The notes under the pieces: generated by a model
Told to the model about the DNA's origin: nothing
The model's database searches: none
Seen by the model: the letters and a program-made list of their open reading frames with translations, nothing else
Shown here: positions 1,612 to 19,260 of the stretch, one piece after another
How the letters are laid out: every line of letters starts with the position of its first letter
How positions within the stretch are numbered: the first letter of the stretch is position 1
Origin: Candidatus Excrementavichristensenella intestinipullorum
GTDB taxonomy: Bacteria > Bacillota > Clostridia > Christensenellales > Aristaeellaceae
NCBI GenBank assembly: GCA_018711685.1
Contig: DVHZ01000137.1
Location: 41,912 to 105,911 of the forward strand
Length of the DNA: 64,000 nt
Direction of reading: 5' to 3'
Program-made: the position numbers and the translations under genes

Positions 1612-2919
1612 ATGAGCGTACAAGATCCATGGGACCAGGTGCTGAAAATCATGCAGAAACAAATGCAGAAGATCAGCTATGATACCTGGATTCGCACGTC
1701 CCAGGTGATGGCCGTCAGCGAAAACCGGCTGGTACTGGGCATACAGGATGTGACCGGGGTGCAGATCATGCGCCAACGGTACAGCCAGATGCTGATTGCA
1801 GCGGTGCGGGAGGCCTACGGCCGCAACCTAGACGTGGTGCTGACCAACGTGAACGAGCCCATACCCCCGGAAGCGACGGGGAACGTGGACCCGGCCGGCC
1901 AGCTGAACAGCAAATATACCTTCGACACCTTCGTGGTGGGCGAATCCAACCGGTTTGCCCACGCGGCTTCCCTGGCGGTAGCGGAACTTCCGGGGGAAGC
2001 CTATAACCCGCTGTTTTTGTACGGAGGCGTGGGACTGGGCAAGACCCACTTAATGCACGCCATCGGCCACTATTTGCGGGAGGAGAGCCCGGAGATGAGC
2101 GTGCTGTACATTACCAGCGAACGCTTCACCAACGAGGTGATCGAGGCCATCCAGAACCGCAAAACCCAGGAACTTAGGGACAGGCTGCGGGGAGTGGACG
2201 TGTTGATGGTGGACGACATCCAGTTCATCGCTGGAAAGACCAGCACCCAGGAAGAATTCTTCCACACCTTCAACCACCTGCATTCCGGGGGCAAGCAGAT
2301 CATCATCTCCTCGGACCGTCCGCCCAAGGATATTCCCACCCTGGAGGAACGGCTTCGCTCCCGGTTCGAGTGGGGGCTCATCGCCGACATCCAAAAGCCG
2401 GACTATGAGACCCGGGTGGCCATCCTACGGCGTAAGGCCAGCACTGAGCACATGGAGGTACCCGACGAGGTGCTCAACTTCATCGCCGAAAAGGTGGAAT
2501 CAAACATCCGGGAGCTGGAAGGTTCTCTGATCCGGGTAGGGGCTAAGGCCAGCCTAGAGCAAAAGAGCATCACCCTGGAACTGGCCCAGCAGTCTCTAAG
2601 CAGCTTGGTAAGCGCCCGGTCGGTGAAGCGGGTAACCCCGGAAGCCATCATGCAGGCGGTGGCCGACTATTATCGGGTAGACAAGGGGGACCTGACCAGC
2701 CAGCGCCGCAGCCGGGAAATCGCCCTGCCCCGCCAGGTGGCCATGTACCTGACCCGGGAGCTGACCGGGCTGTCCACCACCCGCATCGGGGACGCCTTCG
2801 GCGGGCGGGACCACACCACGGTGATGCACGGCTGCGACAAGATCGCCGCCACCGCCCGGGAACTGCCCCAGATGGCCAAGACCCTGGACGACATCCGGGC
2901 CGCCATCCGGGACCGGTAG
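1612..2919 (+). CDS. dnaA: Chromosomal replication initiator protein DnaA
   Basis: 435 residues when started at ATG 1612. DnaA initiates replication by binding TTATCCACA boxes and opening the origin. N-terminal domain I starts DPWDQVLKIMQ, the AAA+ Walker A GGVGLGKTHL is near residue 138, Walker B is MVDDIQF, and the C-terminal DNA-binding helix-turn-helix carries the signature GGRDHTTVMHGCDKI. An in-frame ATG at 1573 would add 13 residues, but the 1612 start aligns better with the usual domain I, where a Trp falls at residue 7 or 8, and has a GGGGG ribosome site. Upstream DnaA boxes suggest autoregulation. dnaN follows after 254 bases. Confidence 0.98.
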   Translation: MSVQDPWDQVLKIMQKQMQKISYDTWIRTSQVMAVSENRLVLGIQDVTGVQIMRQRYSQMLIAAVREAYGRNLDVVLTNVNEPIPPEATGNVDPAGQLNSKYTFDTFVVGESNRFAHAASLAVAELPGEAYNPLFLYGGVGLGKTHLMHAIGHYLREESPEMSVLYITSERFTNEVIEAIQNRKTQELRDRLRGVDVLMVDDIQFIAGKTSTQEEFFHTFNHLHSGGKQIIISSDRPPKDIPTLEERLRSRFEWGLIADIQKPDYETRVAILRRKASTEHMEVPDEVLNFIAEKVESNIRELEGSLIRVGAKASLEQKSITLELAQQSLSSLVSARSVKRVTPEAIMQAVADYYRVDKGDLTSQRRSREIALPRQVAMYLTRELTGLSTTRIGDAFGGRDHTTVMHGCDKIAATARELPQMAKTLDDIRAAIRDR

Positions 2920-3173
2920 GCGGCCGGACAAAGGGCGCCGGGCCCATGGCCGTCAGGGCGCCCGCTGGGTATAATTTGGGGATGAAACAGGGGGTTGACG
3001 CACCGGTTTCCCCAAAATATTCCCGGGGAAAAATCCCGCCCCGCCTGGGCTTCACCCCCTTTTCCACAGTTTCCACACGTCTACTACGGCGACTGTGATA
3101 ACTATTCTTTCTACAGCGAACACCAAAACTTCTACGGACGCGGCAAAGCGCCCGGGAAAACAGGAGGAACGCC
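2920..3173. other. dnaA-dnaN intergenic region, candidate oriC part 2
   Basis: This gap holds two degenerate DnaA boxes in tandem, TTTTCCACA (3060-3068) and GTTTCCACA (3069-3077), plus a GGGCGCC/GGCGCCC inverted repeat just after dnaA (about 2934-2965) that could end dnaA transcription. It also has AT-rich patches (CCCAAAATATTCCC). A dnaA-dnaN gap with extra boxes resembles the second half of bipartite Firmicute origins. The dnaN ribosome site AGGAGG lies just before ATG 3174. Confidence 0.5.
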
Positions 3174-4280
3174 ATGAAATTTTCCTGCGAGGCCCAAGTT
3201 TTGCTGGGCGGATTGTCCATCGTCACCCGCGTGCTGTCCGCCCGCACCACTCAGCCCATCCTGGAAGGGGTGCTGGTGAAAACCACCGACGAAGGATTGC
3301 AGCTCACCTGCTCCGACGGAGCCATTAGCGTACTCACCACGGTACCCGCCCAGATTAGCGAGGAAGGGACGGTGGTGATGCCGGGCAAGCTGTTCCTGGA
3401 CGTGGTACGCAAAATGCCCCAGGCCCAGCTAAAAGTAACCGTCAACGAGCATTGGGTAGCCAAGCTGAGTTCTCAGGGAGTGCGCATGACCCTTTCGGGC
3501 CAAGCCGGGGAGCTGTATCCGTCGCTGCCCCTGGTCAGCGCGGAAAATTCCTTCGTGCTGCCCCAGACCTTGCTGCGGGACATGATCCAGCAGACCAGCT
3601 TCGCCATCGCCGTAGAGGACCCCCGCAAGGTGCTCAACGGATGCCTGCTGGAGCTGGACAACGGGGAAGCCCGCATGGTGGCCCTGGACGGGTTCCGTCT
3701 GGCCCTGCGCCTGGCCCGGGTAGGAGCGGAAGCGCCCAGCTTGAAGGCCATCATCCCGAGCAAAGCGGTCACCGAGATCGCCCGGGTGCTGGAGGGGGAC
3801 GAAAACAAGATGGCCATGGTGCTCATCGGCGGCAACCAACTGCTGATGAACCTGGAAAATACCCAGCTCTACGCCACCCTCATTGAGGGAGAGTACATCA
3901 ATTACCGGCAGATTCTGCCCGGCAGCTGGCAGACCCGGGTGACCTTCGACCGGGACCAATTGGCCATGTGCGTGGAGCGCTGCTCCCTCATCGCCCGGGA
4001 GGGCAAGAACAACCTGATCCGCATGGAAATCGGCCAGGGGCGCATGGTGATCACCTCCAACGCGGAGAACGGGGAAGCCTACGAGGAACTGGAAGCCGAG
4101 GTAGAGGGGGACGACCTGACCATCGCCTTCAACGTGACCTACGTGTCCGATATCCTGCGGGTGTTGCCCGAGGGCAGGCATTACATGCGCTTTAACTCCC
4201 CGGTGAGTCCCTGCGTGGTGTGTCCCACGGAAGGGGACGATTTCCTGTACCTGATGCTGCCGGTGCGGGTGAACGCCTGA
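3174..4280 (+). CDS. dnaN: DNA polymerase III beta subunit (sliding clamp)
   Basis: 368 residues, normal for the beta clamp, which forms a ring dimer around DNA and tethers the polymerase. The start MKFSCEAQVLLGGLSIVTRVLSART and the end YLMLPVRVNA are typical of the three-fold repeated clamp fold (the C-terminal MPxR motif that contacts partners appears as LPVR). The ATG follows an ideal AGGAGG site. The stop overlaps the next ATG as TGATG. In most Firmicutes recF and gyrB follow; here mnmE does. Confidence 0.98.
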   Translation: MKFSCEAQVLLGGLSIVTRVLSARTTQPILEGVLVKTTDEGLQLTCSDGAISVLTTVPAQISEEGTVVMPGKLFLDVVRKMPQAQLKVTVNEHWVAKLSSQGVRMTLSGQAGELYPSLPLVSAENSFVLPQTLLRDMIQQTSFAIAVEDPRKVLNGCLLELDNGEARMVALDGFRLALRLARVGAEAPSLKAIIPSKAVTEIARVLEGDENKMAMVLIGGNQLLMNLENTQLYATLIEGEYINYRQILPGSWQTRVTFDRDQLAMCVERCSLIAREGKNNLIRMEIGQGRMVITSNAENGEAYEELEAEVEGDDLTIAFNVTYVSDILRVLPEGRHYMRFNSPVSPCVVCPTEGDDFLYLMLPVRVNA

Positions 4281-5617
4281 TGGGGGACACCATCGCGGCC
4301 ATCGCTACAGCCAGAGGCGAGGCGGGAGTCGCCATTGTGCGCATCAGCGGCCCCCAAGCCCAGCGGATATTGGGGGAATGCTTTCAAGCGGCCCGGGGAA
4401 ATGTGGCGCCGGGCCGGCTTTGCTATGGGCACGTGGTGGACGGCCAGGGCGAGGCCATGGACGAGGCCATGGGGGTGCTCATGAAGGGGCCTGCCTCCTA
4501 TACCCGGGAGGACGTGGCCGAAATCCAGTGCCACGGCGGAGAGGTGAACGCCCAGCGGGTGCTGCGCCGGGTGTTGGAGGCGGGAGCGCGCCTGGCGGAG
4601 CCGGGGGAGTTTACCCGCCGCGCCTTTGAAAACGGGCGGATGGACTTGAGCCAGGCTGAGGCGGTGATGGCCTTGGTGGGGGCCAAGGGCCAAGCCGCGG
4701 CCCGGGCGGCGGTCCGGCAGATGAGCGGCGGCGTCTCCCAACTGGTGGAGGAAGCGGCCAAGGGCATATTGGACATGCTCTCCCTCATCGAGGCAGGCAA
4801 CGATTTTCCCGAGGAAGTGGAGGAACAGGCCGCCCGGGACCAGCTGCTGCGGGACATCCGCCAGGTGTACAGGGCGCTACAGCGGGCGGGGGACCCTACG
4901 AGGGCCAGGCTGGTGCGCAGCGGGGCGGTGGCGGCGCTGTGCGGCCGGCCCAATACGGGCAAATCTTCTTTGATGAACGCCCTGCTGGAATACCAGCGGG
5001 CCATCGTCACCAACCAGCCGGGCACCACCCGGGACACCCTCACCGAGACCATGGAGGTGGAGGGGCTGCCCGTAGCGCTGACCGATACAGCCGGCCAGCG
5101 GGACTGCGCCGACCAGGCGGAGCGCATCGGGGTGGACCGGGCCCGGCAGGCGGAGGAACAGGCCGATCTGGTGCTGCTGGTGCTGGATGGAAGCCAGAGC
5201 GCCCAGCCGGAGGATCTGGACATGATTTCCCGGGCGGACCAGCGGTACCTGGCGGTGATCAACAAATGCGACAGGCCCCTGGTCTTTGACGTGAACCTGG
5301 TGAAGCACCTGGAGCGGGTAAGCACCTGCGCCCTCAACGGGGCGGGGATGGACCAGCTGCGCGCCGCGATCCGCCGCAGGCTTTCCGGCGCGGCGTCGGA
5401 GGAAGCGCTGATCACCGGGGAAAGGCAGCTGGCGCTGTGCGCCCAGGCCCTTCAGCGCCTGGAAAGCGCCCGGACGGGGCTGGAAGCGGGCTTTCCCGCC
5501 GACGTGGCGGCGGTGGATTTGCAGGGCGCTTTGGAGGCGCTGTGGTCCATTACCGGCAAAAATGCCCGGGAGAGCGTCATCGATCAGGTATTTTCCAGGT
5601 TTTGTGTAGGAAAATAG
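4280..5617 (+). CDS. mnmE: tRNA uridine-5-carboxymethylaminomethyl modification GTPase MnmE
   Basis: 445 residues from ATG 4280, which overlaps the dnaN stop by one base. MnmE works with MnmG (encoded near 17.5 kb here) to add cmnm5 to the wobble uridine of certain tRNAs. Visible parts: N-terminal formyl-THF-binding domain (DTIAAIATARGEAGVAIVRISG), G-domain motifs GRPNTGKSS and DTAGQR, NKCD (G4), and the C-terminal FCVGK whose Cys is the conserved FCIGK residue. In many genomes mnmE and mnmG sit together near the origin; here they are about 12 kb apart. Confidence 0.97.
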   Translation: MGDTIAAIATARGEAGVAIVRISGPQAQRILGECFQAARGNVAPGRLCYGHVVDGQGEAMDEAMGVLMKGPASYTREDVAEIQCHGGEVNAQRVLRRVLEAGARLAEPGEFTRRAFENGRMDLSQAEAVMALVGAKGQAAARAAVRQMSGGVSQLVEEAAKGILDMLSLIEAGNDFPEEVEEQAARDQLLRDIRQVYRALQRAGDPTRARLVRSGAVAALCGRPNTGKSSLMNALLEYQRAIVTNQPGTTRDTLTETMEVEGLPVALTDTAGQRDCADQAERIGVDRARQAEEQADLVLLVLDGSQSAQPEDLDMISRADQRYLAVINKCDRPLVFDVNLVKHLERVSTCALNGAGMDQLRAAIRRRLSGAASEEALITGERQLALCAQALQRLESARTGLEAGFPADVAAVDLQGALEALWSITGKNARESVIDQVFSRFCVGK

Positions 5618-5630
5618 GCGAAGAATGTGG

Positions 5631-5659
5631 TTGAACTTAACGCGGGAAGCCGATATAAT
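5631..5659 (+). promoter_or_regulatory. Promoter of the 2-oxoacid oxidoreductase operon
   Basis: -35 TTGAAC (5631-5636), 17-base spacer, perfect -10 TATAAT (5654-5659), about 37 bases before the ferredoxin-subunit ATG. Confidence 0.75.
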
Positions 5660-5695
5660 CAATAGATACATTGAGCGAATAGAGGTGTGTGGAAG

Positions 5696-5899
5696 ATGGC
5701 CAGCGTACATATCGCCCAGGATACCTGTAAGGGATGCGGCCTGTGCGTGGACAGCTGCCCCAAGGGCATTCTGGCGCTGTCCGGCAAGATCAACCAAAAA
5801 GGGTACCACCCCGCCGAGTGCGTGGATCCGGACAAGTGCATCGGCTGCGCGTTCTGCGCCCGGATGTGCCCGGACTGCGCGATTACGGTGGAGAAGTAA
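5696..5899 (+). CDS. korD: 2-oxoacid:ferredoxin oxidoreductase, ferredoxin-like delta subunit
   Basis: 67 residues with two 4Fe-4S motifs, CKGCGLCVDSCPKG and CIGCAFCARMCPDC. It is the small iron-sulfur subunit that passes electrons from the thiamine-diphosphate centre to ferredoxin. ATG 5696 is chosen over the in-frame GTG nine bases upstream because AGAGG at 5681-5685 gives a normal spacing. It is the first gene of an operon with the alpha, beta and gamma subunits, which fixes its role. Confidence 0.93.
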   Translation: MASVHIAQDTCKGCGLCVDSCPKGILALSGKINQKGYHPAECVDPDKCIGCAFCARMCPDCAITVEK

Positions 5900-5921
5900 A
5901 GGGCGAGGAGGCTGAAACACA

Positions 5922-6989
5922 ATGGCGGATCGAGTCATGATGAAGGGCAACGAGGCCATCGCCGAGGCCGCCGTCCAGGCGGGCTGCCGGTATTTCTTCG
6001 GTTACCCCATCACCCCCCAGAACGAAATTCCCGAATATATGTCCAAGCGCTTGCCCGAGGTGGGCGGCGCGTTCCTCCAGGCGGAGAGCGAAGTGGCGGC
6101 CATCAACATGGTGTATGGCGCTGCGGGCACCGGAGCCAGGGTCATGACCAGCTCTTCCAGCCCGGGCATCTCCCTGAAGCAGGAGGGCATCAGCTATATC
6201 GTGGGCGCGGAGCTGCCCTGCGTCATCGTGAACATTGTCCGGGGCGGCCCGGGCCTGGGCTCCATTCAGCCCGCCCAGTCCGACTATTGGCAGGCCACCC
6301 GGGGCGGCGGCCACGGGGACTATAACCTGTGCGTATTCGCCCCCAGCACGGTGCAGGAGGCGGTGGAGCTCACCCAGCGGGCCTTCGACGTGGCGGACCA
6401 GTACCGCACCCCGGTGATGGTGCTGGGCGACGGCGTCATCGGCCAGATGATGGAGCCGGTGCGCATGCCCGACTATAAAAAGCGGGACCTGCCCGAAAAG
6501 GATTGGGCCGCCACCGGCTGGAAGGAAGGCTGCGGCCGGGAGCGGGCGGTGATCAATTCCCTGTACATCCAGCCCGACGCCTGCGAGGCCCACAACCTGA
6601 AGATCCAGAAGAAGATGCAGAAGCTGGCCGAGAACGAACTGCTCTACGCCACCGAGATGATGGACGACGCAGATTTCGCCATCGTGGCCTACGGCACCAC
6701 CGCCCGCATCGCCCTGAGCGCGGTGCGCAAGCTGCGCCAGCAGGGGCATAAGGTGGGGCTCATCCGGCCCATCACCCTGTGGCCCTTCCCCACCCAAGCC
6801 ATCGCCCAGGCGGCCAAGCAGGTCAAGGGCATGCTCACGGTGGAGATGAGCTTGGGCCAGATGGTGGAGGACGTGCGCCTGGCGGTGAACGGCGCTTGCC
6901 CGGTGGCCTTCTTTGGACGCACCGGCGGCATGATCCCCGGGGTCAAGGAAATCGCGGAGCGCGCGCTCGCCATGAAGGAGGGACTGTAA
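5922..6989 (+). CDS. korA: 2-oxoacid:ferredoxin oxidoreductase alpha subunit (KorA/VorB type)
   Basis: 355 residues. The start [40 protein letters not shown] is typical of the VorB/KorA alpha subunit, with the substrate-region signature GYPITP and the C-terminal core ([13 protein letters not shown]) of the transketolase-like domain. The complex oxidatively decarboxylates a 2-oxoacid to acyl-CoA with ferredoxin as acceptor, or runs in reverse. VorB-type subunits often act on branched-chain 2-oxoacids, but sequence reading alone cannot separate that from 2-oxoglutarate. The next gene's ATG overlaps its TAA by one base. Confidence 0.93.
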
Positions 6990-7726
6990 TGGCCATCGTA
7001 TTTGAAAAGCCCAAAATGTTGGCGGACGTGCCCTTTCACTACTGCCCCGGCTGCACCCACGGCATCATCCACCGGCTGGTGGCCGAGGCCATCGACCAGT
7101 TGGGCGTGGGGGACAAGACCATCGGCGTAGCGCCGGTGGGGTGCGCGGTGTTCGCCTATAACTACTTTAACTGCGATATGTACGAGGCTTCCCACGGCCG
7201 CGCCCCGGCGGTGGCCACCGGCATCAAGCGGGCCCGGCCCCAGAACGTGGTGTTCACCTACCAGGGCGACGGCGACCTGGCCTCCATCGGCGCGGCGGAG
7301 ATCGTCCACGCCGCCACCCGGGGAGAGAAGATCACCGTAATCTTCGTCAACAATGCCATCTACGGCATGACCGGCGGCCAGATGGCCCCCACCACCCTGA
7401 TCGGCCAGAAGTCCACCACCTCCCCCTATGGCCGGGACGTGGAGCGCAACGGCAACCCCATCCGGGTGAGCGAGATGCTGGCCACCCTGGACGGCCCGGC
7501 GCTGATCCAGCGGGTGAGCGTCCACGACGTCAAGCACGTGCTGGAGGCGGGCAAGGCCATCAAGAAGGCGTTCCAGTACCAGCTGGAGGGCAAGGGCTTT
7601 AGCCTCATTGAGGTTTTGTCCACCTGCCCCACCAACTGGGGCATGACCCCCAAAGAGGCCCTGAAGTGGCTGGTGGACAACATGATCCCCCAGTATCCGC
7701 TGGGCGTCAAGAAGGAGGTGCAGTGA
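6989..7726 (+). CDS. korB: 2-oxoacid:ferredoxin oxidoreductase beta subunit (thiamine diphosphate-binding)
   Basis: 245 residues from ATG 6989, which overlaps the alpha stop (TAATG). The thiamine diphosphate and Mg-binding motif is visible as [20 protein letters not shown] followed by [11 protein letters not shown]. An N-terminal CPGCTHG matches the Cys motif seen in KorB proteins. It forms the catalytic centre together with the alpha subunit. Longer in-frame upstream sequence lies inside the alpha gene and is not used. Confidence 0.94.
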
Positions 7727-7727
7727 C

Positions 7728-8267
7728 ATGGAAAAGCGCATGATCATCGCCGGATTCGGCGGCCAGGGCGTGCTGCTCATCGGCCAGCTCATCGCCTACG
7801 CGGGAATGCTGGCGGACAAGGAGGTCTCCTGGATGCCCTCCTACGGCCCCGAGATGCGGGGCGGCAGCGCCAACTGCGCGGTGGTGGTGTCCGACGAGCC
7901 GGTGGCTTCCCCCAAGGTGGAGGAGGCCGACCTGGTCATCGCCATGAACCGACCCAGCATGGAGCTGTTTGAAAAGGCGTTGGTGCCCGGCGGCGTGCTG
8001 ATCTACAACAGCAGCCTGATCGACGTCAAGCCCACCCGGCAGGATATCCAGGTGGTGGCGGTGCCCTGCAACGACATCGCCAACGACTTGGGCTCCCTGC
8101 GCTCCACCAACATGGTGATGCTGGGCGCTTACGCCGGGGTCACCGGGGAGTATAGCGTGGATACCCTGATGGGCGCCCTGCGCCATAAGCTGGGTCCCTC
8201 CAAGGAGAAATTCATGCCCGCCAACCAAAAGGCCATTGAGGCCGGAATGGCGGCGGTTCGGGGGTAA
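7728..8267 (+). CDS. korC: 2-oxoacid:ferredoxin oxidoreductase gamma subunit
   Basis: 179 residues. It contains the gamma-subunit signature GFGGQGVLLIGQLIAYAG and the SYGPEMRGGSANC motif. The gamma subunit completes the four-polypeptide oxidoreductase and helps shape the active site. The start is two bases after the beta stop, with GAAGGAGGTG upstream. The order delta-alpha-beta-gamma is a common KOR/VOR operon order. Confidence 0.94.
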   Translation: MEKRMIIAGFGGQGVLLIGQLIAYAGMLADKEVSWMPSYGPEMRGGSANCAVVVSDEPVASPKVEEADLVIAMNRPSMELFEKALVPGGVLIYNSSLIDVKPTRQDIQVVAVPCNDIANDLGSLRSTNMVMLGAYAGVTGEYSVDTLMGALRHKLGPSKEKFMPANQKAIEAGMAAVRG

Positions 8268-8268
8268 A

Positions 8269-8472
8269 ATGGATATCCAGCTGGGGGACTTGGTCCAAAT
8301 GAAAAAACCCCATCCCTGCGGCAGCCTGAATTGGACGGTGACGCGGGTGGGCGCGGATATCAAGATCAAATGCCAGGGCTGCGGCCGCGTGGTCATGCTG
8401 GACCGGGCGGTGTTTGAGAAACGACTGAAAAAAATCCTGCGCCGCCAGGCGGGAGAGGAAGGGCCTTCATGA
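8269..8472 (+). CDS. DUF951 family small protein
   Basis: 67 residues starting MDIQLGDLVQMKKPHPCGS and continuing WTVTRVGADIKIKCQGCGRVVMLDR, the DUF951 signature with three Cys. The family is conserved in Firmicutes (YyzM in Bacillus) and its biochemical role is unknown; in Bacillus it sits beside ychF. Here it sits between the oxidoreductase operon and the signal peptidases, and its stop overlaps the next ATG as ATGA. The start at 8269 lies two bases after the gamma stop. Confidence 0.9.
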   Translation: MDIQLGDLVQMKKPHPCGSLNWTVTRVGADIKIKCQGCGRVVMLDRAVFEKRLKKILRRQAGEEGPS

Positions 8473-9314
8473 GCTACCGCTACGATGAGGACTACGAAGA
8501 TGTACCCGCCAGGCGGGTGAAGAAGCCCGCGGGAGAGGGCGCCCAGCGCGGCGGCGAGAAGCGAGCCGCCCGCAAGGCGTCCCCTTCCTCCGGCGCTTCA
8601 TCCCGGAAGGGGGACGCCAAGGCCGCCGCAGGCAAGGCCAGGCCTTCGTCCAAGGCCGCCAAGCCGGCCCCGGAGGGAGGGGCGAAAAAGCGTCCGGCGC
8701 CATCGGGCGCCGCCCGTAAGCCTCGCCACCGCTATCCGGAGGAGGATTACGCGCCCCGGCCCAAGCGCCCTTCAGGGCGCAAGAAGGGCCGCAAAAGGCG
8801 GACCAATCCCATTACGGCGCTGCTGTATTGGGTACTGGCTTTGGCTTTGGCCTTCGGCATCAGCTATTTCGTTCGGGAGTACTGCTTTGAGATCGTCCGG
8901 GTATCGGGAGACAACATGTACGAGACCCTGATGGACGGCGATTTGGCCCTGGTGACCAAGTTCGATTACCAAAGCGAGACGCCCCAGCGGGGCGACGTGG
9001 TGGCGGTGGAGCTGGGCGGCAATCAGGGCTATGTGCTCAGGCGTGTGGTGGGCCTGCCGGGAGAGACCGTGGAGATCGTGGGGGGCGAAACCCTGATCAA
9101 CGGCTCCAAGCTGCTGGAATCCTACATCGGCCTGGCCACCTACGACACCTTTGACGGAAAAACGCTGCCCTCGGGCAAGTATTACCTGCTGGGGGACAAC
9201 CGCACCGAGACCAACGACAGCCGCTCCAGCCAGATTGGCCTGGTGGATCAGGAGGACATCGTGGGCAAGGTGCGCTGGGTGATTTGGCCCTTGAGTCACT
9301 TGGGCAGTTTGTAA
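8469..9314 (+). CDS. Signal peptidase I homologue lacking the catalytic Ser and Lys
   Basis: 281 residues. Residues 1-112 are a basic, low-complexity cytosolic tail rich in Lys, Ala, Pro, Arg and Ser. A membrane segment lies at about 115-136, then an S26 fold. The box that should read SM with the nucleophile reads VSGDNMYETL, so Asn149 (codon AAC) replaces Ser. The general-base Lys in the KRVxGLPG box is Arg191 (YVLRRVVGLPG). Box E GDNRTETNDSR is intact. The two genes downstream keep Ser and Lys. This recalls Staphylococcus aureus SpsA, an inactive homologue beside active SpsB. I infer a non-proteolytic role such as partner or regulator of the neighbouring peptidases. The start overlaps the DUF951 stop. 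Confidence 0.88.
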   Translation: MSYRYDEDYEDVPARRVKKPAGEGAQRGGEKRAARKASPSSGASSRKGDAKAAAGKARPSSKAAKPAPEGGAKKRPAPSGAARKPRHRYPEEDYAPRPKRPSGRKKGRKRRTNPITALLYWVLALALAFGISYFVREYCFEIVRVSGDNMYETLMDGDLALVTKFDYQSETPQRGDVVAVELGGNQGYVLRRVVGLPGETVEIVGGETLINGSKLLESYIGLATYDTFDGKTLPSGKYYLLGDNRTETNDSRSSQIGLVDQEDIVGKVRWVIWPLSHLGSL

Positions 9315-9336
9315 TCGCAGAAAGGTCGGAAAATTC

Positions 9337-9912
9337 ATGAGCGAAGTGGAGCGCATCGCGCCGGAAACCGCCCCAGGCGGGGAGAAAAAGAAAAAGACCG
9401 TGAAGCAGGAAATCTTTGAGTGGATCAAGGCAATCGTCATAGCCCTGGTCGTGGTGTTCATCATCCGCAAATTCTTCTTTACCATGATTCGGGTGGACGG
9501 AAAATCCATGCTGGAGACACTCCAGGACGGCGACCGGGTAGCGGCCACCATCATCGACATGAAGCTGTACGGGCCTCAGCGGGGCAACATCGTCATTTGC
9601 ACCTATCCGGGACAGGATTACCTGTGTATCAAGCGGGTCATCGGAATGCCCGGGGATACGTTGCAGATCATCCGGGGCGTCACCTACATCAACGGCGAGG
9701 TATACGAGGAGCCCTATGTGACCCATCCTAAGACCAACGAGTATTATGGGCCGATCACGCTGGGCGAGGACGAGTACTTCGTCATGGGCGATAACCGGGC
9801 CGTGTCCCACGATAGCCGCTCCAGCGACGTAGGTCCCTTGAGCGCTTCGGCCATCGAGGGCAACGCCAGGTTGCGTCTTTGGCCGCTGAACGCCATTGGA
9901 ACGCTGGACTAG
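9337..9912 (+). CDS. lepB: Signal peptidase I (active-site residues present)
   Basis: 191 residues. A single N-terminal membrane segment (about 31-50) anchors the protein with its catalytic domain outside. The nucleophile motif is VDGKSMLETL (Ser57) and the general base is in CIKRVIGMPGD (Lys99); box E GDNRAVSHDSRSSDVG is complete. It cleaves Sec and Tat signal peptides. It lies 22 bases after the inactive homologue, so they are probably co-expressed. A Lys-rich stretch precedes the membrane segment. Confidence 0.95.
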   Translation: MSEVERIAPETAPGGEKKKKTVKQEIFEWIKAIVIALVVVFIIRKFFFTMIRVDGKSMLETLQDGDRVAATIIDMKLYGPQRGNIVICTYPGQDYLCIKRVIGMPGDTLQIIRGVTYINGEVYEEPYVTHPKTNEYYGPITLGEDEYFVMGDNRAVSHDSRSSDVGPLSASAIEGNARLRLWPLNAIGTLD

Positions 9913-9952
9913 CCCAGTGCGCTTCCCGGCCCTGTGAAAGGGGTTTCAGCCC

Positions 9953-10441
9953 ATGGGATGGGAGAGGGCGAAGCGATGGGAAAGCTTGGTTATGGCTGGA
10001 GTCCTGCTTCTGACGGTCTTTGTGGTGCGCTCCACCCTGTTTACCGTAATCCGGGTGGAGGGGCAGTCCATGCGGGAGACGTACCAAGGCGGCGAGCTGC
10101 TGCTGGTTACCGTGCCCGATTTGTGGTTGCAAGGCCCGCGGCAGGGCGACGTGGTCATATTGCGCTATCCAGGTCAACAGGGCTTATTCGTCAAGCGGGT
10201 GGCTGCCTTGGGCGGACAGCAGGTAGCTTTGCGTCAGGGACGGCTGTACGTGGACGGTTACCCGGTCCAGGAAGAGCCGGGGGTGGTGCGGGATCAGCGC
10301 GCTTTTGGCCCCGTGACGGTGCCGCAGGACAGCGTATTCGTATTGGGCGATAACCGGCCGGATTCCATGGACAGCCGCATGGTGGGGCCGGTTCAGAAGG
10401 ACATGCTGGTGGGCAGGGTGCTGGTCCAATTGACCGGTTGA
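9953..10441 (+). CDS. lepB: Signal peptidase I, second active-type paralogue
   Basis: 162 residues. It has one membrane segment near residues 11-30, the nucleophile in VEGQSMRETY (Ser39), the general base in LFVKRVAALGG (Lys81) and box E GDNRPDSMDSRMVG. The LPGD turn after the Lys is changed to ALGG, so substrate preference may differ from the upstream paralogue. It is shorter than its neighbours. It is in the same direction and probably in the same transcript as the other two signal peptidase genes. Confidence 0.92.
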   Translation: MGWERAKRWESLVMAGVLLLTVFVVRSTLFTVIRVEGQSMRETYQGGELLLVTVPDLWLQGPRQGDVVILRYPGQQGLFVKRVAALGGQQVALRQGRLYVDGYPVQEEPGVVRDQRAFGPVTVPQDSVFVLGDNRPDSMDSRMVGPVQKDMLVGRVLVQLTG

Positions 10442-10456
10442 ATCGAAGGAGGTCTT

Positions 10457-11971
10457 ATGGCAAAGAACCATCATTCGGGAAAGCGGGGACTGACCAGGCT
10501 ATTGGCGCTAATTTTATGCGTTTTGCTGGGGGGAATGGCCGTCGTAGGCGTACTGATTACCGTAGCCTACGGGGAGGAATCGCCGGGCAATGCCACCCAG
10601 CTTACCTTGACTGTGGAGGAGGGCGCGCAGGGACTGCGCGCCCTTCAAGTTACTCGTTATGTGAACCAAACCGGCGGTCACTTGAGCCAGGTGATCTTTT
10701 CTCTGGGCGCAAACAGTATGCGCCGGTTGTCCACCGCCCCTTTTGAGGATGAGGAACTGGCCCAGGCCTATCCTCAAGGCTTCAACGTGGGCGGGGTGCA
10801 GATGGAGCGGGTGATGGTAGACGATCGGCTAGCCAATTGGGGGGTGCAGGGGGATGGAGAAACCTTCATCCGGGTGGACTGCGATTTGGAGCAGGGCGAG
10901 AGCGCGCTGTTCCAATTTGAATACCAGGTGCTCCTGCCTCAGGCCCAGGGCTTTCTGGGCACCGGGGATATAGGCTGGCGGCTCTCCTACTTCACCCTGG
11001 CCCCCTGCGTGTTTCAGGATGGGGATTTCGCCTGCGTGGAGATTGGGCCGGTGGGGGAATGCGCCTATTTCGTGCCACAGGATTATTCCGTCACCATAGA
11101 CGCCCCGGATACCTATCTCATCGCTTCTGGCGGGGAGCAGCATAGCCAGGATGACGGCCAGGGGCGGAGGACCACCACCTTGACCCTGCATGATACGGTG
11201 AGCTTTGCCCTGGCGCTGAGCAGGCGCTATACCCTATACCAGGGCGAGCAGGTTCAGGGCGTGGATCTGGCGTGCTATGCCAATACAGGTTGGGGGGCGG
11301 GCAAGGCGCTGAAAGCGGCCAGCCGGATTTTGGAAGTGTACATTGGCGGGTTGGGGGATTGCCCAGTGGACAAGATAGCCATCGCCCAGGTGGACGGTGT
11401 GCGCCAGGTAGAGAGCCATGATGGGCTGCTGTTGGTGGACCAATCGCTGTTCGCTTTGGGCAAGGAGGAGGAGCTGGAGCGGGCTTTGGCCCTGGGACTG
11501 GCCCGGCAGTGGTTCGGCCTGTCCGTGGAAAACGATCCGGAGCAAGCGCCCTGGCTTTCGGAGGCGGTATGCGCTTACCTGGCGTTTTTGTATTATCAGG
11601 ACCAGTATGGGGACCAGCGCTTTCTGGAAGAATTAAACCTGGAAGTCCTGGACGCCCTGAACATTACGCTGCCCGGCCGGTTGAGCCCGGACGCCTTGCG
11701 CAGTCAATTCTCCAGCCGCTCCGCCTATGAGATCATCGTGCGCCGACGCGGCGCGGCGGTGCTCCACGAGATGAGCAAGGCCGTCGGCCGGCAAGCCCTG
11801 TGGGATACCTTCAAAAGCTATTACCAGGCCAATCGGGGCCAAACCGCCGATAAAGGCGATTTTGAGGAGGCCTTGCTGCAAGCTGCGGGACAGGATTACA
11901 GCCAGGCCCTGGACCATTACATGCAGACCATTTCGGAATACGTGGATCAGAGGCTGGAATGGTATGAATAA
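10457..11971 (+). CDS. Secreted or membrane-anchored M1 peptidase-like protein without the HExxH zinc site
   Basis: 504 residues. An N-terminal hydrophobic segment (about 12-37) acts as signal or anchor. The remainder resembles the M1 (gluzincin) fold: an N-terminal beta-rich part, then a helical region reading LARQWFGLSVEND and WLSEAVCAYLAFLYY. In active M1 enzymes the first part is HELAHQWFG; here residues 346-350 are LGLAR, so both zinc His and the catalytic Glu are gone. The third ligand position, Glu369, is kept at the exact 18-residue spacing. The ribosome site AAGGAGG precedes ATG 10457, 15 bases after the signal peptidase cluster. A binding or scaffolding role is inferred; the substrate is unknown. 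Confidence 0.8.
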   Translation: MAKNHHSGKRGLTRLLALILCVLLGGMAVVGVLITVAYGEESPGNATQLTLTVEEGAQGLRALQVTRYVNQTGGHLSQVIFSLGANSMRRLSTAPFEDEELAQAYPQGFNVGGVQMERVMVDDRLANWGVQGDGETFIRVDCDLEQGESALFQFEYQVLLPQAQGFLGTGDIGWRLSYFTLAPCVFQDGDFACVEIGPVGECAYFVPQDYSVTIDAPDTYLIASGGEQHSQDDGQGRRTTTLTLHDTVSFALALSRRYTLYQGEQVQGVDLACYANTGWGAGKALKAASRILEVYIGGLGDCPVDKIAIAQVDGVRQVESHDGLLLVDQSLFALGKEEELERALALGLARQWFGLSVENDPEQAPWLSEAVCAYLAFLYYQDQYGDQRFLEELNLEVLDALNITLPGRLSPDALRSQFSSRSAYEIIVRRRGAAVLHEMSKAVGRQALWDTFKSYYQANRGQTADKGDFEEALLQAAGQDYSQALDHYMQTISEYVDQRLEWYE

Positions 11972-12122
11972 TCTCCTATCAACGTAGATAAAGAAAAATC
12001 AATGGGATTTGCGGTAGAATTAAAAATTCAAGATGGAAATAAACTGTATTGCAATCTATTGGCCAGTACACGACAATCAAATTTGTATAAGCGAACACGA
12101 TGAATGATATAAATTCAACACA

Positions 12123-12151
12123 TTGACATTTCTGATATTCAAAGATATAAT
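12123..12151 (+). promoter_or_regulatory. Perfect consensus sigma-A promoter of the Nif11-like gene
   Basis: TTGACA (12123-12128), 17 bases, TATAAT (12146-12151): a full consensus promoter, the only one with both perfect hexamers that I found in the window. It sits in a 225-base AT-rich gap (11972-12196) after the M1-like gene in which I see no other gene. The predicted leader before ATG 12197 is about 39 bases. Confidence 0.85.
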
Positions 12152-12196
12152 ATCGATGATATCCAGGGACGTTGAAAAAAACAGGCGGATTGAACA

Positions 12197-12553
12197 ATGG
12201 CTGGAATCAAGGCTTTGATGGAAAAATTGGAAGCCGACGCGGCTTTTGCAGGGGAAATTATCAAAGCGGGAAGTGTCGAAGAACGGATGGATAAGATTCG
12301 ACAGGCGGGATTTGAAATTACCTCCGAAGAACTCGCCAAAGCCCAGAAGAGTGCTGATGGCGATGAGAACTCAGCCTTGAGGGAAGATGAACTGAAAGCG
12401 GTTACTGGAGGAACCAATAGTGATGAGTACGTGGAAATGATAGAAGAGATGAATAGAGTTATCGATGAGTTCAAAAATAATTTTCCGGGGCTTGATGTCA
12501 GCAACCCTGTTATACGGAGAATGTTAACAGATAATCTTAATCATATTTTCTAA
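12197..12553 (+). CDS. Nif11-like leader peptide, putative RiPP precursor
   Basis: 118 residues. The first 72 resemble the Nif11-type leader: an N-terminal helix (KALMEKLEADAAFAGEI), GFEITSEELAKAQ, then an acidic stretch and LREDELKAVTGG. The Gly71-Gly72 pair is the expected cleavage point, in the usual E-L-x-x-V-x-GG context. The putative core is residues 73-118. It is acidic, predicted helical, and has no Cys, so it does not fit lanthipeptide or sactipeptide chemistry. No maturase, protease or exporter gene is near. Base composition is AT-rich, unlike the neighbours, which suggests transfer. A modest AGGCGG ribosome site lies 8 bases before the ATG. Confidence 0.8.
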   Translation: MAGIKALMEKLEADAAFAGEIIKAGSVEERMDKIRQAGFEITSEELAKAQKSADGDENSALREDELKAVTGGTNSDEYVEMIEEMNRVIDEFKNNFPGLDVSNPVIRRMLTDNLNHIF

Positions 12554-12952
12554 GATTTTTTATCAGAGTATTGCAGAAGGCTTGTTAGAAAACCGGTTTT
12601 TGGAATAGAGTGACTTGCTCTATTGAAGAATGCTTTTCATACCTCAAAAAACATCGGGAAATAGCACAACCGATCTCTTTATGCAAAAAGATATTGCCGT
12701 ATTTGTATAAAGGGATTGGCTATAATTTTGTCGATCCATTGTAAGGGCCACAAAAACAGGAAAGCTGTAAATATCAGGCTTTTCGGAGCCTACAATCCGA
12801 AAAAATAAAAGTCTATCACATTACGTTGCAAGCCGTTCAGGTACAATCGGATGGCTTTTTTGCGTGGTAGACTTTGGAAAGGAGAAAATTTTTCAGCAGA
12901 AAAGCAATGCCTATTTTTGTGCAAGGCGGTTGATCGCAGTTCCTGCGGTCTG
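12554..12952. other. AT-rich non-coding stretch after the Nif11-like gene
   Basis: Besides the possible remnant ORF, I see small hairpins: AATAGAG/CTCTATT at about 12605-12625, which could end Nif11 transcription; TTTCGG/CCGAAA near 12780-12802; and an AAGCC/GGCTTTTTT pair near 12829-12862 with a T-run, a plausible terminator on the plus strand. The composition switches sharply to G+C-rich at about 12920. Confidence 0.5.
12610..12744 (+). pseudogene. Possible 44-codon remnant ORF in the AT-rich island
   Basis: A GTG-started frame reads VTCSIEECFSYLKKH and later CKKILPYLYKGIGYNF before TAA 12742-12744. It looks protein-like (mixed hydrophobic and basic residues) but has no ribosome site and an in-frame stop just upstream, so it is more likely the tail of a decayed gene or chance. 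I recognise no family. Confidence 0.25.
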
Positions 12953-13726
12953 GTGAAGTGCCGCCGCCCTTCGGCGGCGGCACTTCACCGCCCGGGGGGC
13001 TTCGCCCCCCGGGACCCCCCACAACGCCCATGCCCCAGCTTTTTCCAGTTTGTCCTTGCCTTTGCTGCGGGGTCCTCTCCAGCCTTCGCTCGTCATCCCG
13101 GCACGAACTCATAGCCCCAGCGTTCCCGCGGCAGGGCCGCCGCCAGATGGCGACGGCCCTGCCGCGCCCGGGGGGCGCTGCCCCCCGGGACCCCCTGACG
13201 CGGGCGTTGGGGCTGTTGGTGGTCTGGTGGAGCGTGGGTACTGCGGTGTGGGAAGTCGGTGGGATTGTGGTGAGTGCGGGGCTTTTTGGGGGATGGGTCA
13301 TCGAGGATGGGGTGTTCTGGCGGTCCCCAATGCCGCCCTTTACGGCGGCATTGGGGGGCTCAGCGTATTTGGGACGTGGGCTCCGCCACATTGCTGCGGC
13401 TCGTGGCTCCGCCCGAAGTTACTGCCGCCCATAGGCTCCTCGCTGGGGCGGATGCGGGTTTGGCTCCTGTTGCTGTGCCCGTTCGCTTTCTGGAGCCTAT
13501 GGGCGGGGAATCAGGTGACGGGGGCTACGGAGGACCGGGGTTGCCGGGGGTGTGGGGATGCGGTGGGGCGCAAAAGTTCGGTGGGCTAGGTGGCTGACTC
13601 GGCGCCGGGGGCGCTGCCCCCGGGCCCCCGCCAGGGACTCCTCGCCCCTGGACCCCCGCCAAGGGGGGATGGCCCCCCTTGGAACCGCCTATCTCGCTGG
13701 CGCGTAGGTGGGGCAACGGCCTTGAG
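12950..13726 (+). repeat. Composite hairpin-rich repeat, copy A
   Basis: A modular non-coding element. From left: a perfect 16-bp hairpin (12953-12988, loop CTTC), then a CCCGGGGGGC hairpin (12991-13013). A second module of the same layout follows: a 12-bp outer stem CGCGGCAGGGCC (13127-13166 overall) and CCCGGGGGGC (13167-13189), then GGGACCCCCTGACGCG. After that come the hairpin CCAATGCCGCC/GGCGGCATTGG (about 13329-13355), a block with GTGGGCTCCGCCACATTGCTGC, a long-loop stem GCCCATAGGCTCC/GGAGCCTATGGGC, and a final GCCGGGGGC/GCCCCCGGGC hairpin running to CAACGGCCTTGAG at 13726. A closely similar element in the opposite orientation lies at 49725-50380. Open frames inside it are spurious. 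Confidence 0.85.
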
Positions 13727-13805
13727 TGGCGCGGTGGCGTTCGTTGGCCGGATTCAAACAAAATGATGTGGTGGCGTTAGAGCTGGAGCGCGTTTTCTTG
13801 GGGAT
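13727..13805. other. Spacer between repeat copy A and the feo operon end
   Basis: About 80 bases with no gene or strong signal. Sequence after CCTTGAG no longer matches copy B, which marks the repeat edge. Confidence 0.4.
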
Positions 13806-13840
13806 AAAATCCAGCCCCTGGATCGCCAAATCCAGGGGCT
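13806..13840 (-). terminator. Intrinsic terminator of the feoA-feoB operon
   Basis: A perfect 11-bp stem AGCCCCTGGAT/ATCCAGGGGCT (13813-13840) is followed on the minus strand by ATTTTATCCC. It lies 8 bases after the stop of the small Cys-rich gene. Confidence 0.8.
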
Positions 13841-13847
13841 AGATGGA

Positions 13848-14006
13848 TCATTTTTTGGGACAGGAGCCTTTGCATTGGCCACTGTATGGGCAATTTTCGC
13901 AGGCGGAACGGCCGCCCGTCTTGATAAACCGACGGAGCCGCCGGATAAGTATCCAGGCCGCTAGGACCAGAAGCAACCCCCCCGCCAGGGCCCATGCCGC
14001 GCTCAT
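13848..14006 (-). CDS. FeoB-associated Cys-rich membrane protein
   Basis: 52 residues: a hydrophobic N-terminal helix (WALAGGLLLVLAAWILI), a basic stretch RRLRRFIKTGG, then a Cys-rich tail with CENCPYSGQC and GSCPKK. This matches the small FeoB-associated proteins that often end feo operons in anaerobic Firmicutes. They may hand iron or electrons to the transporter, but their role is not settled. The ATG (14006-14004) overlaps the feoB stop as ATGA, so translation is coupled. A strong terminator follows. Confidence 0.88.
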   Translation of the reverse strand: MSAAWALAGGLLLVLAAWILIRRLRRFIKTGGRSACENCPYSGQCKGSCPKK

Positions 14007-16159
14007 AGCCCCAGCAGCAGCCCCACTTGGTATACCACCAGGGCTATGGTGTAAGCAACCGCCAATTGTAATCCAATGCCCAGCAATGTGTATTTGGCCG
14101 AATGCATCTCCCGGCGCATGGCGGCCAGCGCCGCCACGCAGGGGGTGTACAGCAGAATGAATACCAGGAAGGAAAAGGCGGACAATGGGGTGAAGAAGCC
14201 GGGAAGCGTCCCCGCCAGAGAGGCGGTATCCGCGCAGGCGTAGAGCACCTGCAGGCTGGACACCACCGCTTCCTTGGCTACCAGGCCGCTAAGCAAGGCC
14301 ACGCTCTTGCGCCAATCGCCAAACCCTAAGGGCGCGAAAATCGGGGCGATAAAACCGCCGATTTTGGCGAACATGCTTTGGCTGGAATCGGTGACGAACT
14401 GTAATTGGGGCGAAAAGCTTTGCAGGAACCAGATGACCACGCTCATGGCAAAGATCAATGTGCCGGCCCGGGTCAGAAAATCCTTGGCCCGATCCCACAG
14501 CCGCCGAAGCACGTTCGCCGGCGTAGGCATGCGGTAGGGCGGAAGCTCCATGACGAAGGGGGTTTCACCCGATTGAAAGACGGTGCGCCGCAGGAGAAGC
14601 CCGCAGCCTACCATGACCAGCATCCCCAGCAGGTACAGGCTGAATACCACCAACCCCCGGTTGGCGGAGAAAAAGGCGGCGGTGAACAGGCCGTACACCG
14701 GCAGCCGGGCCCCGCAGGACATGAAGGGGGTGAGCATGATGGTCATGCGCCGGTCGCGCTCGTTCTCTACGCCCCGGGCGGCAATGATCGCCGTGGTGGT
14801 GCAGCCAAATCCCATTAGCATGGGGATGAAGGAGCGGCCGGACAAGCCCATCTTGCGCAGCAGTTTATCGGTAATGAAGGCGGCCCGGGACATATACCCC
14901 GAGTCCTCCAGGATAGACATGAACAGGAAGATCAGCAGAATCTGGGGCAAAAACACCAATACTCCGCCTACGCCGGCGATGATGCCCTCTATCACCAGGG
15001 AGTACACCCACTGGGGTGCGCCGCCGGCCATTAACGCGGCAGAAGCGGCCGCGCCCAGGACGTTGTTCACCAGGGCGTCCATGAGGGTGGTGAGGAAGCT
15101 GCCTACCGGGCCGAAGGTGAGGGCGAACATGAGAGCCATTACCGCCAGGAAGATGGGGAAGGCCAGGTATTTGTTCATCATCACCTTGTCGATGCGGGAG
15201 GAGATATCCTCGTGCTTATCGCTGGAGCGCAAAAAGCCGGTTTCCTTCAGCGCCCGCTCGATGGTGCGGTACCGGCAGTCGGCCACCAGGGTGAGCCCGT
15301 CAATGCCCGGATGTATGCAGCGGCCGCGCTCCACATAGCCTTCTACCGCCTGGCGAATGCTCTCCTTTTGCCGGCCGGTCAGGTAGGCCGCCTGGTACAT
15401 GGTCTGGTCGCCTTCCAGGAACTTGATGGCGACCCAGTCTACAGGGGGGGCAAAGTCCACGTCGCCTTCGTCCACATAGCCGCCGATGTGGCCGTGCTCG
15501 GCCCGGGGACCGTGGTCGTTGTCCCGCTCGTGCTCGTCCCGGTGTTGAAAGTGCTCCGATACGTCAAAGGCCGAGTGGGAGCCCGCGCCGCCCAGGGCCG
15601 CCACGATTTCCGCTACTGCTTGCCGGGTGGATGCGTCGTACCGCTCCACCGGCCGGGGCAGGGTCTTGTCGTGGGCCTGCTGGTGGATGGCCTCAAACAG
15701 CTGGTCAAAGCCCTGGCGCTTTTTAGCCGAGATGGGCACCACTGGGGTCTTCATCATTTTGGACAGCGCCGCGCAGTCGATCTTGCCGCCGTGGCGCTCC
15801 AATTCGTCCATCAGGTTCAGCGCCACCACCATGGGCCGCTCCAGCTCCATCAGCTGCAGCGTCAGGTACAGGTTGCGCTCCAGATTGGTGGCGTCTACGA
15901 TGTTGAGCACCACGTCCGGGCTATGCTGGGCGATGAAGTGGCGGGTGATATTCTCCTCAATGGAATAAGGGGACAGGGAATACACGCCGGGCAGATCCAC
16001 CAGGGTAGCCTGGTCGTCCCCGATTTGAAACCGGGCTTCCTTGCGCTCCACCGTTACGCCGGGCCAGTTGCCCACGTATTGGTTGGAGCCGGTGAGGGCG
16101 TTGAACAGGGTGGTCTTTCCGCTGTTGGGATTGCCCGCCAGAGCGATGGTGATGTTCAT
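14003..16159 (-). CDS. feoB: Ferrous iron transport protein B
   Basis: 718 residues. The cytosolic G domain shows GNPNSGKTT (G1, residues 9-17), DLPGVYS (G3) and NLMDE (G4). The membrane part with two gate-like halves follows (FLPQILLIFLFMSILEDSGYMSRAAF and GFGCTTTAI). It imports Fe(II) under anoxic conditions, with GTP (or NTP) binding gating transport. Residues 195-224 form a His- and acid-rich insertion with seven His, which is longer than expected for the linker between the G domain and membrane part and may bind metal. feoA overlaps upstream by 4 bases. Confidence 0.97.
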   Translation of the reverse strand: MNITIALAGNPNSGKTTLFNALTGSNQYVGNWPGVTVERKEARFQIGDDQATLVDLPGVYSLSPYSIEENITRHFIAQHSPDVVLNIVDATNLERNLYLTLQLMELERPMVVALNLMDELERHGGKIDCAALSKMMKTPVVPISAKKRQGFDQLFEAIHQQAHDKTLPRPVERYDASTRQAVAEIVAALGGAGSHSAFDVSEHFQHRDEHERDNDHGPRAEHGHIGGYVDEGDVDFAPPVDWVAIKFLEGDQTMYQAAYLTGRQKESIRQAVEGYVERGRCIHPGIDGLTLVADCRYRTIERALKETGFLRSSDKHEDISSRIDKVMMNKYLAFPIFLAVMALMFALTFGPVGSFLTTLMDALVNNVLGAAASAALMAGGAPQWVYSLVIEGIIAGVGGVLVFLPQILLIFLFMSILEDSGYMSRAAFITDKLLRKMGLSGRSFIPMLMGFGCTTTAIIAARGVENERDRRMTIMLTPFMSCGARLPVYGLFTAAFFSANRGLVVFSLYLLGMLVMVGCGLLLRRTVFQSGETPFVMELPPYRMPTPANVLRRLWDRAKDFLTRAGTLIFAMSVVIWFLQSFSPQLQFVTDSSQSMFAKIGGFIAPIFAPLGFGDWRKSVALLSGLVAKEAVVSSLQVLYACADTASLAGTLPGFFTPLSAFSFLVFILLYTPCVAALAAMRREMHSAKYTLLGIGLQLAVAYTIALVVYQVGLLLGL

Positions 16160-16404
16160 GCCCGCACCCCCTTGGATACCTGGATTTGCTGGGCGTCTTC
16201 TTCCCGCAGGGTGAGCACATAGCCCCGCAGGCGTATCTCCATGGGGTCGCCCAGGGGTGCCCGCCGGGATATGGACACCTGTGTACCCGGGGTAATGCCC
16301 ATCTCCACCAGGCGGCGGCGGGTGCGCCCCTCCACGTCAATGCGCTCCACCGTGGCTGGTTCATCGATCTTCAGGCTGCTCAGCGGTTGCCATGCCCCAT
16401 CCAC
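16156..16404 (-). CDS. feoA: Ferrous iron transport protein A
   Basis: 82 residues with the SH3-like FeoA fold: SLKIDEPATVERID, RRRLVEMGITPGTQVSISRRAPLGDPMEIRLRGYVLTLR. FeoA binds and modulates FeoB. The start is GTG at 16404, behind GGGAGGGGAC; a nearby ATG is out of frame. It is the first gene of the leftward feo operon, with coupled translation into feoB. Confidence 0.95.
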   Translation of the reverse strand: MDGAWQPLSSLKIDEPATVERIDVEGRTRRRLVEMGITPGTQVSISRRAPLGDPMEIRLRGYVLTLREEDAQQIQVSKGVRA

Positions 16405-16435
16405 ATTCGTCCCCTCCCCATTGCATCCTCAAACA

Positions 16436-16450
16436 AAAATAATGATAAAC
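16436..16450 (-). promoter_or_regulatory. Possible Fur-like operator upstream of feoA
   Basis: The AT-rich stretch AAAATAATGATAAAC, about 32-46 bases upstream of the feoA start, partly matches the 7-1-7 Fur box (TGATAATNATTATCA). It is the only AT-rich patch in the gap and lies where an iron-responsive repressor would act. The match is partial. Confidence 0.3.
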
Positions 16451-16532
16451 CCGGCAGCAGGCCTTGTCAAACCCTAATTTGCCCCCTGGACGCCATGGCC
16501 GGTTAAAAATCGGGAAAAGATGAATCCCCGGC

Positions 16533-16561
16533 TTTCCACCGGGCCTGGGCCGCGCTATAAT
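16533..16561 (+). promoter_or_regulatory. Promoter of the PfkB kinase-mnmG pair
   Basis: Weak -35 TTTCCA (16533-16538), 17-base spacer, perfect -10 TATAAT (16556-16561), 24 bases before the kinase ATG. Confidence 0.6.
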
Positions 16562-16585
16562 GAAAGCGTTTTGGGAGGAAAGAGC

Positions 16586-17469
16586 ATGGATGTACTGACT
16601 TTAACCCTCAATCCCTGCGTGGACCGCACCCTGTGGCCCGATGGCCGGGTGGATTGGCAGAGCGGGGGCAAAGGGGTAAACGTGGCCCGGGTGCTGGCCA
16701 ATTTGGGGGCCGATTGCCTGGCCCTAGCCCCCGTAGGCGGCGCAGGCGGGCAGACCTTTGCCGCTCTGGCCCGGCAGGAAGGGGTACGGCTGGAGGAGGC
16801 GCCCATTCAGGCGCAAACCCGCACCGTGGACACCTATGTCTCCGGGTCGGATTATGCCCAACGGGTGGTGGTGGGGCGGCCGCCCCAGATGACGCCTGAG
16901 GAGGTAGAGGCGCTGTACGCCCAGGCGGCGCGGCTGATTCCCCAGGCCAAGGTGTTCTGCGTGTGCGGCTCCGCCTGCTGCCTGGAGGCGGCCCAGGCCG
17001 GGGCGCGGCTCATCCAGCTGGCCAACCGGCTGGGGGTGCCCACGCTGCTGGACGCCAACGGGCCCATGCTTACCCTGGGGGTTGAGGCCAAGCCCAAGCT
17101 GATCAAGCCCAACCAAAAGGAGCTGGGCCAACTGCTGGGCCGGGAGATCGCGCCCGGCGGCGAGGAGGCAGCCGCCCAGGCGCTGCTGCAGCGGGGAATC
17201 CAGCGGGTGCTGGTTTCCCTGGGCGAGGCAGGGGCGGCGCTGTTTACCCAGGAACAGTCGCTGTACTGTCCCGCGCCCAAGGTACAGGCGGTGAATCCGG
17301 TGGGGTCGGGGGATAGCTTTGTGGCGGGCTATTTGTTCGCCCTGCTTCGGGGGCAAAGCGACTGGGGCGCGCTGGCCTACGCCTGTGCCGCCGGGGCGGC
17401 CAACGCGGCCATGTTCCCTGCGGCCCGGGTGGGGGCAAAGGAGATTCAGGAGATAACGGGGTATGTGCT

Positions 17470-17473
<4 letters not shown>
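16586..17473 (+). CDS. PfkB family hexose kinase (1-phosphofructokinase/tagatose-6-phosphate kinase type)
   Basis: 295 residues from ATG 16586 (GGGAGGA site upstream). The start [17 protein letters not shown] is typical of the FruK/LacC group, with the sugar-binding [15 protein letters not shown] and the C-terminal anion hole and catalytic base in [15 protein letters not shown]. It probably phosphorylates fructose 1-phosphate or a related hexose phosphate; no PTS gene is adjacent to decide. The stop overlaps the mnmG ATG (ATGA). Confidence 0.9.

Positions 17474-19260
<1,787 letters not shown>

Follow-up and report, generated by a model that had tools for sequence, protein, structure and literature searches.

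How could a peptide precursor be cut and exported when no gene beside it is recognisable as a partner, and what would its product do? The question is raised by an open reading frame (ORF) for 118 amino acids at 12197-12553, on the forward strand of a 64,000-nucleotide stretch of the Candidatus Excrementavichristensenella intestinipullorum genome (assembly GCA_018711685.1, contig DVHZ01000137.1, positions 41,912 to 105,911; hereafter the window). We found that this ORF is a real, intact and unlinked gene for a Nif11-leader double-glycine (GG) peptide precursor. We consider it probable, if well short of certain, that the peptide is cut after Gly72, exported in trans by a C39 transporter, left unmodified, and active outside the cell.

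Leader and promoter of the precursor gene

Compared with the 118-residue product, the NCBIfam model TIGR03798 (leader_Nif11) scored 42.9 bits (cut-off 32.3; E = 4.2e-11) and Pfam PF07862 (Nif11) scored 26.9 bits (cut-off 23.8). Residues 4-72 align to TIGR03798 positions 6-68 of 68, the alignment stopping at Gly71-Gly72, and the best solved relative by sequence, a 'Nif11 domain-containing protein' (9zn4_A; E = 3.6e-4), matches the same residues. The Nif11-type leader comprises residues 1-72 (12197-12412, forward strand) and ends in LREDELKAVTGG. All six positions of the C39 recognition motif are present in it, namely L-12, E-8, L-7, V-4, G-2 and G-1. Recognition of L-12, L-7, V-4 and GG by C39 domains has been reported in the work that is also the source of E-8 in the motif, where LahT150 was found to read the last 13 leader residues and to cleave diverse leaders (PMC6363468). 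Among the 6 Nif11-type leaders found in the genome, only this one carries the full six-position motif, the other five lacking it.

Upstream of the gene, TTGACA (12123-12128) and TATAAT (12146-12151) are separated by a 17-nt spacer and match the sigma-70/sigma-A consensus promoter exactly (12123-12151, forward strand; 12/12, a consensus match only). This exact promoter occurs once in the 64-kb window and in 0 of 100 shuffles, with one further occurrence in another 104 kb of the genome. A Shine-Dalgarno-like AGGCGG, read from the sequence, lies 8 nt 5' of the ATG (12183-12188, forward strand), and the gene would be transcribed from its own promoter, with a predicted start near 12158. GATAT and ATATC words are repeated around the -10 box (12132-12163; GATATAATATC...GATATC) and may form an operator overlapping the promoter. 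No clear terminator structure was found 3' of the stop codon.

An earlier note on this DNA, made from the letters alone, had described a Nif11-like leader ending at Gly71-Gly72, a 46-residue core without Cys and a TTGACA-17-TATAAT promoter across 12123-12553, a span that comprises promoter and gene. All three descriptions hold, and the Nif11 profile search that the note had named as a possible refutation gave a match above cut-off.

Export and modification genes in the same genome

Across the full 106 kb of this contig, searches of the organism's own genome turned up no C39 exporter, no SPASM maturase and no second Nif11 gene. The precursor gene lies about 52 kb from both contig ends, and its lack of linkage to the loci that we found on three other contigs, C101, C112 and C144, is therefore genuine. 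At the end of C101, an NHLM C39-peptidase/permease/ATPase (L011, 9772-12111; TIGR03796, 914 bits; cut-off 853) is followed by the start of a second NHLM transporter (TIGR03797 positions 7-99), and the remainder of a TIGR03797 protein (positions 143-685) lies at the end of C112. Since the transporter is split across their ends, we infer that the two contigs join. Together they hold a Nif11/NHLM/radical-SAM cluster (L011, G000:C101, 9772-12613; L003, G000:C112, 1-10406), and TIGR03796 plus TIGR03797 on C101/C112 give the genome an NHLM/C39 export system.

C112 also encodes two radical-SAM proteins and four GG/Nif11-type precursors. All four precursors fall under the TIGR03798 cut-off, with one reported over the Pfam Nif11 cut-off; because the profile scores are low, they were assigned in part by position and by the GG site. 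SPASM domains were found in the two C112 radical-SAM proteins and in one protein on C86. On C144, a second lone Nif11-type precursor, this one with a Cys-containing core, adjoins an MsrAB-like gene (L016, G000:C144, 1384-1836).

In the mechanism that we propose, a Nif11-leader ('N11P') GG precursor, probably horizontally acquired, would be expressed from its own promoter, and its 72-residue leader would direct it to the NHLM C39-peptidase ABC exporter encoded in trans on C101. The exporter would cut after Gly72 and release a 46-residue acidic, Cys-free and probably helical peptide outside the cell. There the peptide, most likely unmodified, might be a signal or an antagonist of narrow range.

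Nif11 leaders and C39 exporters are associated across the family. TIGR03798 matches were present in 64 of 308 family genomes, strong C39 matches in 142 and both in 60; strong C39 matches therefore accompanied 60/64 genomes with Nif11 and 82/244 without (Fisher p 1.8e-19, uncorrected for kinship). Among the matches listed, 20 of 30 placeable precursors were >20 kb from a C39 gene or on another contig, the 30 being precursors above cut-off in genomes with a listed C39 position, and contig breaks inflate this fraction. Cores without Cys were encoded by 5 of the 39 GG-leader ORFs read from relatives' loci (one extra ORF was left out of the 39 as spurious), and relatives with such cores include matches to the TIGR03798 leader model. 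N11P precursors have previously been reported far from export genes, and in species without thiazole/oxazole-modified microcin (TOMM) or lanthionine enzymes (Haft et al., 2010; PMC2887384). The precursor type has been known since 2010, and this member adds a core for which no match was found.

The earlier note had seen no exporter or modifying enzyme in the window, and for C39 exporters and SPASM maturases we can extend this to the whole contig. Its suggestion that the precursor is processed by enzymes elsewhere gains support from the NHLM C39 exporter and two radical-SAM enzymes, and the genome search for other Nif11 leaders that it proposed yielded four on C112 and one on C144. Its interpretation held in part: the leader, the GG site and the Cys-free core stand, but it overstated the rarity of an unlinked or Cys-free precursor. 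N11P precursors far from export genes had already been described (PMC2887384), and the relatives examined here show both traits repeatedly.

The core peptide and its fate

The core, TNSDEYVEMIEEMNRVIDEFKNNFPGLDVSNPVIRRMLTDNLNHIF, spans residues 73-118 (12413-12550, forward strand). Its 46 residues (about 5.47 kDa, or about 5471 Da if unmodified; nine acidic, four basic) carry a net charge of -5 with an isoelectric point of about 4.4, and include no Cys, one Gly, two Ser and two Thr. With 0 Cys, 1 Gly and 2 Ser it departs from the core composition by which N11P is described, although the model does not demand that composition. Taken as a helix, residues 75-95 are more amphipathic than shuffled orders of that segment (p 0.004), and AlphaFold2 run without an alignment predicted helices at 75-95 and 104-117 with low confidence (predicted local distance difference test, pLDDT, 54.7). 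The core is probably helical on these predictions. The codon-position pattern of GC content (GC) is coding-like in leader and core alike. The leader has a higher GC than the core; core swapping was not inferred from this, because many relatives show the same difference.

No core homologue was found by an exact-word (8-mer) scan of 84,980 species, a kind of scan that needs a shared exact word, so that for a core this short remote relatives may escape it. One candidate, L091, was rejected because its 1385-aa protein, from a genome of 29% GC, shares the word IDEFKNNF by chance. The 308 family genomes also yielded no core homologue, the matches being to the leader only or to unrelated proteins, and 396 genomes of the order gave matches at chance level only (helicase-like 1000-aa proteins and one 23-residue match). 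Plasmids, phages and viral contigs gave no core homologue.

In a rival reading, the leader would bring the core to a C112 radical-SAM maturase or an unrecognised enzyme, which would alter non-Cys residues before export and make the product a modified RiPP (ribosomally synthesized and post-translationally modified peptide). Two radical-SAM genes of this genome indeed neighbour Nif11-type precursors, and one of those precursors has a Cys-free core (VILNIVGGANRPFLII). In one relative, Cys-free cores adjoin a LanM-type DUF4135 gene. However, the target leader is 27-32% identical to the C112 leaders, three of which are 49-64% identical to one another. This divergence makes recognition by a shared maturase doubtful, and a shared exporter is easier to defend than shared maturases. 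With no Cys and only two Ser and two Thr, the core itself also speaks against modification, which we regard as unlikely.

Relatives offer precedents for both fates, in the form of a LanM-type DUF4135 set and of a set without a maturase. In the latter, an NHLM locus of genome G233 (L098, G233:C27:41000-60000, 1923-18031), HlyD-like, C39 ABC and second ABC genes accompany four GG-leader Cys-free peptides, two of them identical 115-aa copies, together with ECF-type sigma factor, STAS-FHA, BspA-type leucine-rich repeat (LRR), Ser/Thr kinase, VWA-FHA and PP2C genes. No maturase was recognised in this locus, or by eye in its 11-12 kb flanks. Like our target, these precursors have a GG leader, a Cys-free helical-looking core and an NHLM exporter in the genome; in contrast, they sit beside the exporter and kinase/phosphatase genes, and their cores are hydrophobic or cationic.

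Three further loci were noted among relatives. At L100 (G280:C196:1-5976), NHLM-type ABC, STAS, TIR-FHA and BspA-type LRR proteins are encoded with a Cys-free Nif11-type peptide; the set resembles that of G233 and suggests a recurring module, although the contig ends there. At L097 (G070:C20, 2213-11681), a LanM-type DUF4135 gene and NHLM exporter genes adjoin three Nif11 precursors whose cores lack Cys. At L099 (G282:C16, 1253-13453), SpoIIE phosphatase, STAS and HATPase (partner-switching) genes precede NHLM exporter genes, and a radical-SAM gene and Nif11 precursors lie near the exporter genes.

Besides the G233 locus, comparison with known systems places the target close to, yet apart from, three groups. 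It shares with N11P (PMC2887384) the leader profile, the GG site, a variable core and distance from export genes, but its core is Cys-free, acidic, probably helical and without a detected homologue. LahA1-9 and the target both have Nif11 leaders with L-12, L-7, V-4 and GG, and C39 cutting is known for lah; the lah precursors are encoded with their transporter, whereas the target's exporter is on another contig (PMC6363468). In a working comparison, class II GG-leader bacteriocins and pheromones have the same GG leader spacing and, like the target, a Cys-free and possibly unmodified core. They are defined by a short TIGR01847 GG leader and a linked exporter, neither of which we found here: TIGR01847 scored 12.5 bits, below its cut-off of 15.7. 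In contrast to their leaders of about 24 residues, the target leader is of Nif11 type and 72 residues long; the target's core is acidic, and no adjoining immunity gene or sensor kinase was seen.

Several points weigh against export of an unmodified peptide with an extracellular role. Typical membrane-active bacteriocins are cationic, and the acidic core is unlike them. The core has no detected homologue that would show selection on it. The co-occurrence test across the family ignores shared ancestry, and transcription, cleavage and export are all predicted from sequence. The two radical-SAM maturases leave room for modification, and among their apparent precursors is one without Cys. Finally, the assembly, a draft of 206 contigs at 89.8% completeness, may be chimeric around the gene.

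If the peptide is nevertheless exported unmodified, then Nif11 leaders, usually read as the mark of a modified RiPP, also serve plain peptides. One exporter could then serve scattered single-gene precursors gained by gene transfer, and such genes would escape genome mining built on the expectation that precursor and enzymes are neighbours; taken alone, the gene adds one more unexplored core. More speculatively, and with considerable doubt, we suggest that helical peptides lacking Cys also leave these Clostridia unmodified through the Nif11/NHLM machinery, the target being a horizontally moved stand-alone case whose acidic core would act as an extracellular signal, not an antibiotic, with its exporter encoded elsewhere.

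The AT-rich island and its neighbours

The precursor gene lies in an AT-rich island of about 0.95 kb (11960-12920; about 39% GC), the only stretch below 46% GC, by 600-bp windows, in the 106-kb contig of 61.7% GC. Apart from the precursor, no gene was recognised in the island, and no immunity gene, regulator or sensor kinase was recognised adjoining it. Upstream, three signal peptidase I genes in tandem and a gene for an M1-peptidase-like protein form an operon (8469-11971). Relatives keep this gene order, with no Nif11 gene seen there, and we therefore rejected the signal peptidases and the M1-like protein as partners of the precursor. In the sole same-genus genome compared, neither the Nif11 gene nor a match to the M1-like protein is present.

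Because the sole AT-rich island adjoins an operon that relatives keep without a Nif11 gene, the simplest reading is that the island was acquired recently, and base composition and gene order suggest a horizontal origin. We found no orthologue of the precursor in any relative, no second copy of the island elsewhere in the genome, no convincing terminal repeats and no Rfam match. A phage or defence origin was rejected, there being no PADLOC match and only PHROGs matches with E >0.07.

The same isolation, with no orthologue in relatives and no recognised immunity or regulator gene alongside, would also suit a relic or silent gene, recently acquired or decaying, whose promoter match is fortuitous or unused. 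We think this improbable, as the ORF is intact, the promoter is perfect, the ribosome-binding site is plausible and codon-position GC is coding-like; moreover, the target is the best C39 motif match among the genome's Nif11 leaders. Least credible, and very improbable, is a cytoplasmic helical Nif11-domain protein with an incidental GG, for which one could cite the long helical core, possibly folded as a helical hairpin in a low-confidence prediction, and the many Nif11-domain proteins that to our knowledge have no known role, but TIGR03798 models precursors, its match reaches the last position at GG and the C39 motif is complete.

Export and cleavage of the precursor in trans thus remain the reading that we prefer for this gene. 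On its other side, downstream and on the opposite strand, lie feoB and feoA.
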